A DNA stretch of 64,000 nucleotides from Haladaptatus salinisoli (GTDB taxonomy: Archaea > Halobacteriota > Halobacteria > Halobacteriales > Haladaptataceae), in the NCBI RefSeq assembly GCF_020614375.1, contig NZ_CP085327.1, positions 806,001 through 870,000 on the forward strand, written 5' to 3'. Each line of letters opens with the position of its first letter. The stretch's first letter is position 1. A model generated the notes under the pieces. The model ran no database searches, had not been told where the DNA came from, and saw only the letters and a program-made list of their open reading frames with translations. Made by a program: the position numbers and the translations under genes. Of the stretch, positions 43,121-54,090 are shown in pieces.

Positions 43121-43717
43121 ATGGCAATCGATACCAGGAAGTTCGCGATAACGATGGTCGCAGCGCTCGTGCTCCAGACAGGCGTCGTCGGCGCAATCAT
43201 GACCGGCGGTGCCGCCGTCGCGGTTCCGACGGCGGGCGTCGGCGGCTTCACGGTGACGTTCGACAAGTTAGAGGGGCAAGGATTCACACAGTACGCGTCC
43301 ATCGAGAACTCGAGCGAGTGTCCGGCCTACCCGTCGGCGGTCGCGAAGATAGATAAGGGAACCATACACAACATGAAACTCTACAAGGACATCAAGATTC
43401 CCGAGGAGATGCCCGGCGGCGGGAACACGGTGAGAGTTCTCATCGCGGCGAACAAACCGGTGAAGTTCACCGGGCTGACACAGAAGTTCACCTATCTGGA
43501 AGGGAACCTCCAGATGAAGAACCAGCAGATAACCTCCGACCCGGCGAGCATGAAGAGCGCCATCTCGCTCTCGGCTCCTTCCATCGTCATCAAGGACGGG
43601 AAGATTCACGCCCAGAGCCAGTTCCTGCGGAGCATCACGCTGAAGGGAACGCACGTGCAGACCAAGGTGAACCCCGAGAGCGACACCAAGTTCCCGGCGA
43701 ATCAATGTGCGGCCTGA
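43121..43717 (+). CDS. DUF6230-like secreted protein
   Basis: A 198-residue protein with an N-terminal signal or anchor (KFAITMVAALVLQTGVVGAIMTGGAAVA) and a beta-rich mature domain. The FTVTFDKLEGQGFTQYASI segment matches the actinobacterial DUF6230 pattern (SADSLEGTGFVQY), followed by KIDKGTIHNMKLYKDIKIP and GLTQKFTYLEGNLQMKNQQI. As in Actinobacteria, the neighbour (43758) is DUF6114-like. Two cysteines flank the domain (SSECPAYP and the terminal CAA). Function unknown; association with extracellular or membrane lipid-related clusters in Streptomyces is uncertain. Confidence 0.75.
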   Translation: MAIDTRKFAITMVAALVLQTGVVGAIMTGGAAVAVPTAGVGGFTVTFDKLEGQGFTQYASIENSSECPAYPSAVAKIDKGTIHNMKLYKDIKIPEEMPGGGNTVRVLIAANKPVKFTGLTQKFTYLEGNLQMKNQQITSDPASMKSAISLSAPSIVIKDGKIHAQSQFLRSITLKGTHVQTKVNPESDTKFPANQCAA

Positions 43718-43757: not shown

Positions 43758-44186
43758 ATGTCCACAACGTACGGGTCACAGCTCGGGTCGTACCGCTCGC
43801 GGTTCGCGTCGTGGCGACACGACCGTCCCTTCTGGGGAGGCGTGTTCGTCCTCCTCGGCGGACTCATCATCGGCATCATCCCCGCCGAACTGGCGCTCAC
43901 CTTCGCGCTCGTCCCGAGCATGTTCATGTTCGCCGGACTGGTGTTCGCCATCTTCGTCATCCTCTGCGGGATCTTCGCGCTGCTGCGCCCGGACTTCGCG
44001 GAGTTCTTCGGGGCCGCCGCCATCCTGCTTTCCATCGCCTCCATCGTCGGGGCGCTCGGCGGTTTCGGAATCGGGATGATGTTCGGCGTGCTCGGCGGCG
44101 CGATGTGCGTCGCGTGGGAAGACCCCCGGGAAACGGAATCCCGAGAGACCGACTCGACTTCCGACGAGCAGGCGACGGTGACGTGA
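43758..44186 (+). CDS. DUF6114-like membrane protein
   Basis: A 142-residue four-helix membrane protein. It has RPFWGGVFVLLGGLIIGIIPAEL at the start, a middle helix pair and EFFGAAAILLSIASIVGALGGFGIGMMFGVLGGAMCVAWEDP at the end. That layout, RPFWGG ... GGFxxGMxxGxxGGxxxxAW, is the signature I know from actinobacterial DUF6114 proteins. A GAGAGG sequence about 10 bases before the ATG is a plausible Shine-Dalgarno. It is preceded by the DUF6230-like gene with a 40-bp gap, so they form an operon. Confidence 0.8.
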   Translation: MSTTYGSQLGSYRSRFASWRHDRPFWGGVFVLLGGLIIGIIPAELALTFALVPSMFMFAGLVFAIFVILCGIFALLRPDFAEFFGAAAILLSIASIVGALGGFGIGMMFGVLGGAMCVAWEDPRETESRETDSTSDEQATVT

Positions 44187-44376
44187 GGCTCGGCGCTCGC
44201 CGACTCGACCCGCTTTTCGTTCGAAGCACGACTCGCAAGCGCCGCCGACCCGCGAACCGTCCCGCTTCCGAACGGCAGTATCGATAAGAGAGGTTTCAGC
44301 GGTCTCAGGGCGTCTCCCGCCCGAGATTAGGAGACGTATAATAATGTACGTCTCCAAAGTTGTAGGAACACTGACG

Positions 44377-45030
44377 ATGAGATATCTCACCCTCAGGCTG
44401 ATGCTGGACGGCGACGGAATCCATCCAGTCGGCGATCTCATCGCGGGACACCCCGCCATCCAGCGGGAGGAACTCATCCACGTCAACGCCCTCTACAGCG
44501 GGGACGGTGTGCTCTTCTACCGACTTCGAGGCGACGTTGACGCGCTCGCCGAGGAACTGGACGCCCACGACTCGGTGCTCGCGTACGACATCCTCGACAG
44601 ACAGAAATCGCAGTTCCACATCTACATCTACGTCGAGTCCGGCGAACCGGCCGGGACGCTCATGCACATCGTCGAGAAGTACGCCCTGATAATCGACACG
44701 CCGCTCACGTACACCGACTCCGGCGACATCTTGGTGACGGTCGTCGGCAAGGAGGAGATGATCCAGCGGGCGTTCCGAGCGTTGCCACAGTGGATAGACA
44801 TCGAAGTCGAACAGACCGGCGATTACGCGCCCGACTCCGGCTACCTGCTCTCGCAGTTGACCGACCGACAGCACGAAGTTCTCGAAACGGCGGTCAAACT
44901 CGGCTACTATCAGATTCCGCGGCAGGTCACGCACGCGGACATCGCGGAACGACTCGAGTGCGCCCCCAGCACCGTCGACGAACACCTCCGAAAGTGCGAG
45001 CAACACCTCTTTTCGACGCTCATCGGATAG
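44377..45030 (+). CDS. HTH_10 (bacterio-opsin-activator-like) transcriptional regulator
   Basis: A 217-residue protein. The N-terminal alpha/beta region (MRYLTLRLMLDGDGIHPV ... RLRGDVDALAEEL) is followed by a C-terminal HTH_10 domain: LTDRQHEVLETAVKLGYYQIPRQVTHADIAERLECAPSTVDEHLRKCEQHL. Start at 44377 because the paralogue at 53437 begins MRYVKFVLI at the same position. No PAS/GAF sensor is attached. Located between the DUF6114-like and repeat-glycoprotein genes, it probably controls them. Confidence 0.88.
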   Translation: MRYLTLRLMLDGDGIHPVGDLIAGHPAIQREELIHVNALYSGDGVLFYRLRGDVDALAEELDAHDSVLAYDILDRQKSQFHIYIYVESGEPAGTLMHIVEKYALIIDTPLTYTDSGDILVTVVGKEEMIQRAFRALPQWIDIEVEQTGDYAPDSGYLLSQLTDRQHEVLETAVKLGYYQIPRQVTHADIAERLECAPSTVDEHLRKCEQHLFSTLIG

Positions 45031-45152
45031 TTTATCCGCGGCGCGACGTGCGACAACGCTCGTCGGCATATAAATGACCGGAAATGCACAAGGGAATTAA
45101 TTTACTGCTGAAGGTGCATGCTAGCAGTAGTCATAATTGACAGTGAAAATTC

Positions 45153-46610
45153 ATGGGGCACTCGATCACCATCGCCGTGGTACTTTGTGTCGCGTTCGCC
45201 TCGGTCGTTCCCGCGTCGGCGACGTTTGGCTCCGACGGGGTTCCGTCGGCCGCGGACCAAACCCTCACGGGCGAGCTACGGTGTTACCAGGACGTGACGT
45301 ACCGAAACGTCCGGTTTCCCGCCCACGGGCAGAGCGCGCGCGATCTGCAAGTCGAAGGGGCCGTCTCGGGATACCTCGATTCCAACGGGAGTTCGGGCGA
45401 CGCACCGATAACGATTCGAATCGCTCGGTTCCACGCGGAGAAGGTGTGTCTGGAGGCGAACAGTTCTGACGGCACGCCGGGAGTCCACCTCACGTTCAAG
45501 CGGGCGGAGTTGGAGAACGCGACCGTTCGCGGACCGAACCTCCTGTTCGAGCGGGCGACGGCGGACTCGATCAGCTTCGACGTTCCAGAGGACGTCGGTC
45601 GCCGACTCCTCTCCCGGTTCATCGGGAACGGAAGTCAGAACGGAACCGACGGACTCCCCGGTACGGGCGGCAACGCGACCGACCCGACCGAACGAGTTCC
45701 GGGCGACGTCGATAACGGGACCGGGACGCCGATTCCGAACTCGACCGACGACATCGAGAACCGAACGAGCGTTCCCGGGGATGGCGTCGAGAACACCACC
45801 GACGGCGTCACGGACGGCGTCGATAATACGACCGACGACGTGCGGGACGGCGTCAACGATGGCGTCAACGACACCACGGACGAGGTCGAAAACACCACCG
45901 GCGGCGTTACGGACGGGGTGGAAGACGGCATCAACGACACGACTGACGGGGCGAAAGACGGCGTCGAGAACACCACCGGCGGCGTCACGGACGGGGTGAA
46001 GGACACCACGGACGGCGTCCAAGACGGCGTCGAGAACACCACCGACGGCGTCGACGACACGACCGACGGAGTCAAAGACGGCGTTCAGAACACGACCGAC
46101 GGGGCGAAAGAGGGCGTCGAGAACACCACCGACGGCGTCACGGACGGGGTCAAGAGAACGGCGAGCGGGCTACGTGACGGTGTCCAAAACACTTCCGATG
46201 GCGTCCAGGACGGCGTTCAGAACACCACGGACGGTGTCGCCGACGGCGTCCAGAACACGACCGACGGAGTGAAAAACGGCGTCGGGAACACCACCGACGG
46301 CGTTACGCAGACGGCCGGCAGCGTGAAAGACGGCGTGAAGGATACGGCGGGGAGCGTCACGGACGGCCTCGGCGACGCGACCGCCACCGAGACGACGACT
46401 CCCGACACCACGACCTCCTCGGACGAGACCACCGGCGCGACGACCGCCGGGACGACGACCGACGACGACGGCATAGACCTACTCGATACGACGACGTCCA
46501 ACGCGACGGAGACGACGGGAACGAACACCACGACCGGAGAGACGGACGGGACGACCACGACCGACGACGGACTGCTGTCGACGGGCTTCGTCGGCGTCAG
46601 GGGCGCGTGA
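45153..46610 (+). CDS. Secreted glycoprotein with 11-residue (hendecad) repeats
   Basis: A 485-residue secreted protein. A signal peptide (about 1-24) is followed by a beta-rich N-terminal domain (about 35-150, two cysteines), then from about 210 to 405 around twelve 11-residue repeats of consensus DGVxNTTDGVx. Val at positions 3 and 10 gives a 7/4 hydrophobic pattern typical of hendecad helices. About 13 NxT/S sequons lie in the repeats, so this region would be heavily N-glycosylated. A Thr/Ser/Glu-rich tail (TETTTPDTTTSSDETTG) follows. No C-terminal anchor is present. The function is not known; cell-surface or matrix component is inferred. Confidence 0.85.
   Translation: MGHSITIAVVLCVAFASVVPASATFGSDGVPSAADQTLTGELRCYQDVTYRNVRFPAHGQSARDLQVEGAVSGYLDSNGSSGDAPITIRIARFHAEKVCLEANSSDGTPGVHLTFKRAELENATVRGPNLLFERATADSISFDVPEDVGRRLLSRFIGNGSQNGTDGLPGTGGNATDPTERVPGDVDNGTGTPIPNSTDDIENRTSVPGDGVENTTDGVTDGVDNTTDDVRDGVNDGVNDTTDEVENTTGGVTDGVEDGINDTTDGAKDGVENTTGGVTDGVKDTTDGVQDGVENTTDGVDDTTDGVKDGVQNTTDGAKEGVENTTDGVTDGVKRTASGLRDGVQNTSDGVQDGVQNTTDGVADGVQNTTDGVKNGVGNTTDGVTQTAGSVKDGVKDTAGSVTDGLGDATATETTTPDTTTSSDETTGATTAGTTTDDDGIDLLDTTTSNATETTGTNTTTGETDGTTTTDDGLLSTGFVGVRGA
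45781..46370 (+). repeat. In-gene tandem repeats with 33-bp basic period
   Basis: The DNA behind the hendecads repeats GACGGCGTC(g/c)AGAACACC-type units at 33-bp multiples within the reading frame. Some units are partly duplicated (22- or 66-bp offsets), as expected for expansion by slippage or unequal crossing-over. Codon-level differences between copies show that expansion is not recent for all units. Confidence 0.7.
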
Positions 46611-46665: not shown

Positions 46666-47652
46666 CTAGCCGTTCTGCGGTTTGAAGATGTCGGCGATAC
46701 GTCCGACGAACGAGTTCCCCGCCTCGGCTCCCTCCGCGACCTCGTACTCGCGTCGGAGGGAGCCGTTTCGCAGACTCAGGACGGCCATCCCGTCACCGGA
46801 GACGAGCTCTCCGACGTTCTCCCCGACCACCGTCCCGGAAGTGGTGACCAGCGTCGCGCGCGCGTCAGCGTCGGACGCGATCGACCGGAGCGCCGCCACG
46901 TCGCTCTCGTCCGGTCGTTCGTGCACGGCGGCGATCACGCGGTCGTTCAACAGTTCGTCTCGCGCGTAGACGTGGACGGGAACCTCGTCGCCCGCTCGGT
47001 CCGTCACCGTGGTGTCTATCTCCGTCTTCAACTTCCTGTCCTCGAATATCTCGGCCATCGACTGGCGCGCGGTCAACTGCTCTTCGACCCACTCGGCCCC
47101 CCGGTCGCTCAGGTAGTATCGGTAGAGAATCCGCTCGACGGTCTGCAACGGCGGGAAGACGAGGCGACAGTCGCGGCAGCGGAGTCGGTGCTCCGGGGTC
47201 TCGAATATCGCCTCGCAGTCCTCGCAGACGTGCGCGGCGTCGGACTCGAGGTGCTGAAGCGATTCCAGCGACGTCTCGCACTCGGGACAGGCGACGCCGT
47301 CCTCCTCGACGAACTGCTCCCGGATTCCCTCGTACCCGCAGTCCGGATGCCGGTACCGGTCCGTCCGAATCGTCTGCGGGGACTCGCAGGTGGGACACGC
47401 CGTCGTGTACTGCATCCCCTTCGTCTCGCACCGCGGGCAGATGTACTGCTTCTCCTGAAACTCGCGGTAGAGGAGGTCCCGTTCGGCGAGCGTCTCCAGC
47501 ACGTCGAAGGTTTCACCGTCGCGTTCGTCGAGTCGCTCGTCCGCGTCGGGGTACGTGACCTCTCCCGTCTCCGTATCGAGCGTCGGCCGAATCTCGTCGA
47601 GTGAATCGTCCCAGAGGGCGGTCAACAACCGAACCGTGCCCGGCGAAGCCAT
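46666..47652 (-). CDS. Multi-zinc-ribbon protein, TackOD1-like
   Basis: A 328-residue protein with an N-terminal winged-helix-like region (about 1-65: MASPGTVRLLTALWDD ... VLETLAERDLLYREF), then several CxxC knuckles (ICPRCETKG, ACPTCESPQ, HPDCGYEG, ACPECETS, VCEDCEA, RCRDCRLVFP), about six zinc-ribbon halves in about 110 residues. The C-terminal part carries VHVYARDELLNDRVIAAVHERP. The pattern recalls the TackOD1 (thaumarchaeal output) zinc-domain family. Possibly a nucleic-acid or ubiquitin-like-ligand-linked regulator. It converges with the hendecad gene. Confidence 0.68.
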   Translation of the reverse strand: MASPGTVRLLTALWDDSLDEIRPTLDTETGEVTYPDADERLDERDGETFDVLETLAERDLLYREFQEKQYICPRCETKGMQYTTACPTCESPQTIRTDRYRHPDCGYEGIREQFVEEDGVACPECETSLESLQHLESDAAHVCEDCEAIFETPEHRLRCRDCRLVFPPLQTVERILYRYYLSDRGAEWVEEQLTARQSMAEIFEDRKLKTEIDTTVTDRAGDEVPVHVYARDELLNDRVIAAVHERPDESDVAALRSIASDADARATLVTTSGTVVGENVGELVSGDGMAVLSLRNGSLRREYEVAEGAEAGNSFVGRIADIFKPQNG

Positions 47653-47875
47653 GCTGTCAACTAACAAGGTTCGACTATTTAACCATCACTCAAATCATAA
47701 TCATTAATTTATAAATGATGTTTGAGGTTCGGACGAGGACTCCTCGAAGCGTTCCGGTAGAGCGTGAAACGAACCGCGGTCATCCCCGCTCGTGCCTGCG
47801 ACGGTCGAGCGGGGCCGGACGGTCGCGGTTTCGGCGGTCGGAAGCCCCGCGTCTCGGCGTTCGTGACCCGACGGG

Positions 47876-53436: not shown

Positions 53437-54090
53437 ATGCGGTACGTCAAGTTCGTCCTCATCCCCGACGACGGTGGGCTCCACCCGGTCGACAAAGCGT
53501 TCGCGTCGGAGCCGTCGCTCACGCGGCAGTTCATCCACGAGATATCGCTGCTCAACGACGGGACGGCGATCACCATCTATCAGCTGTCCGGCGACGCCGA
53601 CGTGGTCGAGGACATCCTCGCCGAACACGACGAGGTGGTGATGTCGCACGTCTCGCAGCCGCGTGACAGCGTCCACGTCTACGTCCAGTTCGAACCGAAC
53701 GAGGTCATCGAGACGCTGCTGGAGATTCCGCGCGAGTACGAACTCATCGTCGACACGCCGCTGGAGTTCACCGACCGCGGCGGCCTCCGACTCACGGTCG
53801 TCGGCGAGGAGGAGATGGTTCGACGGGCCATCCCCGAACTTCCCGCGTCGCTCCGCCCGAAGTTGGAGCAGACCGGGGACTACAAACCGCAGAACGAGCG
53901 GCTCTTTTCCGTGCTCACCGAGCGCCAACAGGAGATACTGAAGACGGCGGTGGAACTGGGCTACTACTCGGTTCCGCGTCGCGTGACCCACGAGGACCTT
54001 GCCAGCGAACTCGACTGCTCCCCGAGCAACGTGGGCGAACTCCTCCGCAAGGTCGAATCGACCATCCTCACCGAGGTAACGCCCCGCTGA
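53437..54090 (+). CDS. HTH_10 (bacterio-opsin-activator-like) transcriptional regulator, paralogue of 44377 gene
   Basis: A 217-residue regulator of exactly the same length and layout as the one at 44377: MRYVKFVLIPDDGGLHPVDKA N-terminal alpha/beta region, QFEPNEVIETLLEI, and HTH_10 domain LTERQQEILKTAVELGYYSVPRRVTHEDLASELDCSPSNVGELLRKVESTIL. No sensor domain. Sits between an SDR gene and SCP2/acyl-CoA dehydrogenase genes, probably regulating them. Confidence 0.9.
   Translation: MRYVKFVLIPDDGGLHPVDKAFASEPSLTRQFIHEISLLNDGTAITIYQLSGDADVVEDILAEHDEVVMSHVSQPRDSVHVYVQFEPNEVIETLLEIPREYELIVDTPLEFTDRGGLRLTVVGEEEMVRRAIPELPASLRPKLEQTGDYKPQNERLFSVLTERQQEILKTAVELGYYSVPRRVTHEDLASELDCSPSNVGELLRKVESTILTEVTPR

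Follow-up and report, generated by a model that had tools for sequence, protein, structure and literature searches.

We analysed a 64,000-nucleotide stretch of the Haladaptatus salinisoli genome, hereafter the window. It contains a gene for a 485-residue repeat protein (45153..46610, + strand), which is a single complete ORF and occurs in one copy in its own genome. The gene is the third component of a module whose other members encode a DUF6230 protein (43121..43717, +; PF19741, 48.3 bits, cut-off 27.5), with one TM-like segment at the N-terminus and a probably extracellular domain, and a small DUF6114 membrane protein with three TM-like segments (43758..44186, +; PF19609, 96.9 bits, cut-off 27.9). 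Between the latter and the repeat protein gene lies a gene for an HVO_0513_N / HTH_10 transcriptional regulator (44344..45030, +; PF24278 and PF04967). A paralogue of this regulator, 42 percent identical, occurs ∼8 kb downstream (L010:16438-17091, about 53437-54090 of the window). The downstream boundary gene encodes a TackOD1 zinc-ribbon protein (46666..47667, − strand; PF18551). It is present in 9/9 Haladaptatus genomes and is therefore probably outside the module. The genome has a second TackOD1 paralogue, 64 percent identical, on a separate contig (G000:C7:5626-6624, L109).

The repeat protein begins with a predicted Sec-type signal peptide (residues 1-23; 45153..45221, +), whose cleavage site was placed by eye between VVPASA and T. 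Residues 5-23 are the only TM-like segment of the protein, and its relatives likewise have only the N-terminal one. The signal peptide is followed by a β domain of ∼115 residues (residues 42-157; 45276..45623, +). In the AlphaFold2 model calculated with 12 homologues, this domain had a pLDDT of mostly 63-88; its two cysteines, Cys44 and Cys99, are invariant across these homologues. The domain matched no Pfam family and no PDB sequence, and Foldseek, run with the full predicted structure on PDB and viral libraries, gave no match at E ≤ 0.001. A linker with scattered sequons (residues 158-209; 45624..45779, +) leads into the repeat array (residues 210-406; 45780..46370, +), and the protein ends in a Thr-rich acidic tail with a TDDGLL motif close to its end (residues 407-485; 46371..46607, +). 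An acidic motif of the DDG-x-L-L type ends or nearly ends the repeat proteins of Haladaptatus and of relatives in families f4 and f6. The maximum hydropathy over the last 60 residues is 0.17. No C-terminal membrane anchor or other known anchor was found that would account for retention of the protein at the surface, which counts against a surface role.

A candidate archaeal BRE/TATA element, GGGAATTAATTTACTG (45092..45107, +), is located ∼45 bases upstream of the ATG, and three other Haladaptatus orthologues have a similar AT-rich block at the same position. A scan for bacterial-type promoters and terminators yielded nothing useful. The third-position GC content of the gene is 0.84, a bias that is ordinary for a coding frame. 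Antisense ORFs across the repeat were rejected as the mirror image of its codon pattern.

An earlier note on this DNA described about twelve 11-residue repeats at 45781-46370, with a sequon in nearly every unit. The 11-residue repetition is real. Self-identity of the array at lag 11 was 0.53, as compared to 0.02-0.10 at most non-harmonic lags, Tandem Repeats Finder detected 33-base arrays spanning the repeat, and the spacing recurs in diverged relatives. Self-identity was also raised at lags 4, 7, 15, 18 and 22. After a leading DGV, the array divides with zero remainder into 18 seven-residue blocks (xNTTDGV) and 17 four-residue blocks (xDGV), and the hydrophobic residues are thus spaced by 4 or 7. 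The number of units is accordingly higher than was noted, at ∼17-18 hendecad equivalents, and the sequons are sparser: N-x-S/T occurs in 13 of the 18 heptads. The protein has 24 such sites in total, the remainder lying outside the array.

On a hendecad wheel, Val occupies positions a and h, Thr occupies d and e, g and k are mostly Gly, and the sequon Asn falls at b or c, 115-147° from the Val stripe. The hydrophobic spacings of the window protein are exclusively heptad- or hendecad-compatible. In agreement with the hendecad pattern proposed from the 7 and 4 spacing, a hydrophobic-moment analysis gave a helical periodicity of 98-100°. A stricter rule, in which each unit carries one Asn exclusively at b or c, did not reach significance across the full set of proteins (p 0.06) and was set aside.

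To assess chance, we used composition-preserving shuffles, which overstate significance because the repeat units were duplicated: the repeat-bearing stretch contained 16 sequons versus 4.7 ± 1.8 (maximum 11, n = 2000), its hydrophobic moment at 98° was 1.36 versus 0.41 ± 0.06, and up to 33 consecutive V/I/L spacings fell within {4,7,11} versus at most 6 in 2000 shuffles. Across related repeat proteins, Asn was in a sequon in 178/201 cases while Asp was in an x-[S/T] context in 252/580 (Fisher p 2e-31, an overstated significance as the test counts repeat units as independent). The recurrence of the spacing in relatives with diverged units is a stronger argument than the shuffles.

Orthologues are present in four of nine Haladaptatus genomes, the window genome included, and have total lengths of 472-580 residues. 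The β domains of the three others are 85, 47 and 43 percent identical to that of the window protein. The repeats of the window protein and of its H. halobius orthologue differ by 63 synonymous and 54 nonsynonymous codon changes. Val persists at 28 of 30 aligned positions, 14 of them via a synonymous change, and Thr at 31 of 37; retention of both is largely by synonymous change, and positions with E, Q or A vary freely. Eleven aligned units have a sequon in both proteins, the Asn being shifted between b and c in five. Beyond the genus, a profile search with the N-terminal domain identified further homologues in haloarchaeal families f4 and f8. The hydrophobic moment peaks at 98-100° in 11 repeat proteins (z 8-17) and, in addition to these, at 98° in a diverged Natronococcus protein, and the 4/7 spacing and this moment are kept despite unit sequences as different as DGVxNTT, VNDTTDTVGDT and VNETVNNTGES.

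These observations bear on an alternative in which the region is a glycosylated acidic linker, mucin-like and intrinsically disordered, and the 4/7 Val spacing arises as a side effect of duplicated blocks, devoid of helical meaning. The persistence of the spacing and moment over several families with different units argues against this alternative, as does the retention of Val while codons change. Moreover, non-repeat linkers have no such moment: two relatives that share the N-terminal domain of the window protein have a non-periodic linker with no clear helical moment. The same two relatives also provide support for the alternative, in that plain acidic NxT linkers occur at the equivalent place. 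Their Asn residues are in sequons in 8/8 and 6/6 cases, which indicates that what unites the whole family is an acidic region rich in sequons. On this comparison of sequences, the helical phase is an added property of many members and is not essential to the family. As periodic and non-periodic members share the β domain, comparing them can separate the predicted dense N-glycosylation from amphipathic helix periodicity, a natural test of how the two work together within a single repeat.

Some matches were set aside. The third proteins of the f6 type did not match the N-terminal domain and are therefore assigned to the group by their gene neighbourhood and repeat rather than by a homologous domain. 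A match in G133 was an unrelated-looking V/G-rich frame with no sequon array. Separately, a haloarchaeal 597-residue frame (L088, G322; match at ∼1501-1737) encodes a different protein, in which NTTDTVE-type repeats lie between an N-terminal hydrophobic segment and a second one, which is followed by what appear to be two winged-helix DNA-binding domains. It may be a regulator that is anchored in the membrane and exposes an ectodomain open to glycosylation.

Structure predictions for the array, made for monomers, were contradictory. AlphaFold2 with 12 homologues returned a disordered repeat, with a pLDDT of about 35 and no helix. By contrast, single-sequence prediction of the repeat alone, an approach that is unreliable for periodic sequences, yielded one 196-residue helix at pLDDT 87.5, the mean pLDDT of the five models ranging from 27.5 to 87.5. 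The composition, dominated by Gly, Asp, Thr, Asn and Val, confers poor helix propensity: the mean is 0.66 kcal/mol per residue, as compared to 0.31 for an LEA 11-mer. Only two residues per 11 are strongly hydrophobic, and the hydrophobic fraction is 0.18-0.27. The suggestion that one face of a helical rod is sugar-covered thus stands in part. The sequon Asn is offset from the Val stripe, and in a helix its glycans would project from the polar face, but the predictions disagree on the helix itself.

Could the array nonetheless form a stable coiled coil of the hendecad type, with several helices wound into a right-handed rod as in the tetrabrachion stalk? There is archaeal precedent for such a rod (PMC5744192), and the 11-residue periodicity, the full a/d/e/h layout (V/T/T/V), the uniformly compatible spacings and the single-sequence helix are all consistent with it. 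However, hydrophobic residues do not fill all core positions, d and e being Thr in nearly all units. Given this core, the predominance of Gly at g and k, the low hydrophobic fraction and the disorder of the alignment-based model, we consider a stable coiled coil improbable. The discordance of the models and the low helix propensity led us to propose conditional folding instead. The same disordered model and poor propensity favour the mucin-like linker, as do a net charge of −47 across 261 residues and the resemblance of the Thr-rich tail to the Thr clusters of haloarchaeal S-layer proteins, which are thought to be O-glycosylated spacers (PMC5744192). Weighed against the conservation described above, a purely disordered linker is a serious contender, albeit not the reading we favour.

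Profile searches with the repeat gave weak, mostly sub-threshold matches, mainly to amphipathic-helix or coiled-coil families. For the window protein, the Pfam matches included ApoLp-III (35 bits against a cut-off of 36.3) and Apolipoprotein (28.6 against 90), and the matches listed included no LEA model. Matches to ApoLp-III, YtxH, Ag473 lipoprotein, ZorA and GvpQ in Pfam and NCBIfam were confined to the repeat and below cut-off for the window protein, and were taken as pattern resemblance only. Similarly, a PDB sequence match to FtbJ covered only the repeat and was not taken as homology. The weak ApoLp-III, apolipoprotein and YtxH matches, together with the 11-residue amphipathic pattern and a T-x-[DE]-G-V similarity, could point to a protectant of LEA, apolipoprotein or synuclein type that would fold at a membrane or lipid surface when cells face drying or salt shock. 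Such a role is very improbable. The repeat protein is predicted to be extracellular, is strongly acidic, sequon-rich and poor in Lys, and its gene is linked to a membrane module rather than to stress genes. The sole match above a curated cut-off, of ApoLp-III to a protein in G358, lies in low-complexity sequence.

Within Haladaptatus, the DUF6230, DUF6114 and repeat protein genes are either all present or all absent in a given genome, and are found in the same 4/9 genomes. In one Haladaptatus genome that lacks the four module genes (G008), the flanking ICL, HpcH and TackOD1 genes are adjacent; either loss or gain of the cassette may account for the pattern of presence and absence. In each of the four Haladaptatus genomes with the module, the HTH_10 regulator gene lies beside it, as it does at many other haloarchaeal loci. 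An HMM of the N-terminal domain had matches in 10/394 genomes of the order, all within the 30 that have DUF6230 (chance about 1e-12, phylogeny ignored), and each match was at most ∼2 kb from DUF6230. No homology between the N-terminal domain and DUF6230 was detected (hhalign probability 4%), and none is claimed. At 20 other DUF6230 loci, 13 had an adjacent acidic, sequon-rich protein predicted to be secreted, and at least seven of these 13 proteins contained a repeat of the type seen in the window protein. On a plasmid of Natronococcus sp. AD-5, the DUF6230, DUF6114 and repeat protein genes are consecutive. The window protein has the features of this third component: it adjoins DUF6230 and DUF6114 and combines a signal peptide, a two-cysteine β domain and a sequon-rich acidic C-terminal region. 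The third component belongs to no family in Pfam or NCBIfam, and the only literature mention of DUF6230 found was as a promoter source in Streptomyces. Because the same small gene cluster occurs in several other archaeal families, the repeat protein looks like part of an undescribed cell-surface module. DUF6230 and DUF6114, families of unknown function, thereby gain a predicted secreted partner and a testable context in the haloarchaeal envelope. Among variant loci, two (L035 and L041, in G062 and G051) have DUF6230 matches inside open frames of ∼3,344-3,348 residues, the second match being below the curated cut-off. Another (L054:7341-13948) has tandem DUF6230-like and DUF6114-like genes, some encoding long proteins (longest 671 residues).

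Judging by its signal peptide, we infer that the repeat protein is secreted. The genome encodes an AglB-type oligosaccharyltransferase (940 bits, cut-off 450) which, with the signal peptide and sequons, makes the protein a predicted N-glycoprotein, probably modified by AglB at the N-x-T sites of the repeat. We put roughly even confidence in the proposal that it is a secreted, length-variable stalk of a haloarchaeal envelope module, with an N-glycosylated, conditionally helical repeat. In this proposal, the module consists of DUF6230, DUF6114 and the repeat protein, often with the HTH_10 regulator. The repeat protein would be exported by Sec, and its cysteine-containing β domain would most likely dock on the membrane partners DUF6230 and DUF6114. 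Val at a and h, flanked by Thr at d and e, would form a single, narrow stripe of hydrophobic residues that keeps helical phase from end to end of the array, the other face bearing the glycans and acidic residues. In solution the monomer would probably lack order; on self-association, or on a surface in high salt, it would become an extended amphipathic helix that acts as a glycan-coated spacer. A bolder version, which we hold only tentatively and think unlikely as a whole, is that of a new archaeal surface fibre: a secreted, glycan-armoured amphipathic helix of 4- and 7-residue blocks, retained by a membrane module of DUF6230 and DUF6114 that is dedicated to it and is gained and lost across haloarchaea as a cassette.

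The earlier note knew of no such protein described from archaea, yet each half has an archaeal precedent: an 11-residue helical stalk in tetrabrachion (PMC5744192) and sequons along a coiled-coil stalk in SlaB (PMC10903991). Tetrabrachion of Staphylothermus marinus resides at the archaeal cell surface, as is proposed for the window protein, and like it has repeats of 11 residues whose spacing follows a helical phase; in tetrabrachion they serve as a stalk, an undecad right-handed coiled coil. Unlike the repeat protein, tetrabrachion is a tetrameric coiled coil in a crystal structure (PMC5744192). The repeat of the window protein differs in having two Val per 11 residues and in being Thr/Gly-rich, very acidic and sequon-studded; no sequence relation between the two was detected. 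SlaB of Sulfolobus S-layers resembles the repeat protein in that N-terminal β structure precedes a stalk along which N-glycosylation sites are predicted; of the 14 such sites in SlaB, six lie along its predicted coiled-coil helix (PMC10903991). SlaB has three β-sandwich domains, a trimeric coiled coil and a C-terminal TM anchor (PMC10903991), whereas the repeat protein has one β domain, tandem 4/7 blocks and no TM anchor. The LEA 11-mers and the KTKEGV repeats of α-synuclein are likewise 11-residue amphipathic repeats; they lack structure in isolation and form a helix when bound to a partner or membrane (PMC11043620, PMC12703102), the behaviour proposed for the window protein. Those proteins are intracellular, Lys/Glu-rich and devoid of a sequon array, whereas the window protein is predicted to be secreted and is acidic and Thr/Gly-rich. 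Haloarchaeal S-layer proteins share with it a Thr-rich, probably glycosylated spacer close to the C-terminus (PMC5744192); the window protein lacks their S-layer domains and membrane anchor and has N-x-T sites, not Thr clusters alone. Finally, the window gene sits in a module built on the DUF6230-DUF6114 gene pair (PF19741, PF19609), to which it adds a family-less, repeat-bearing third component.
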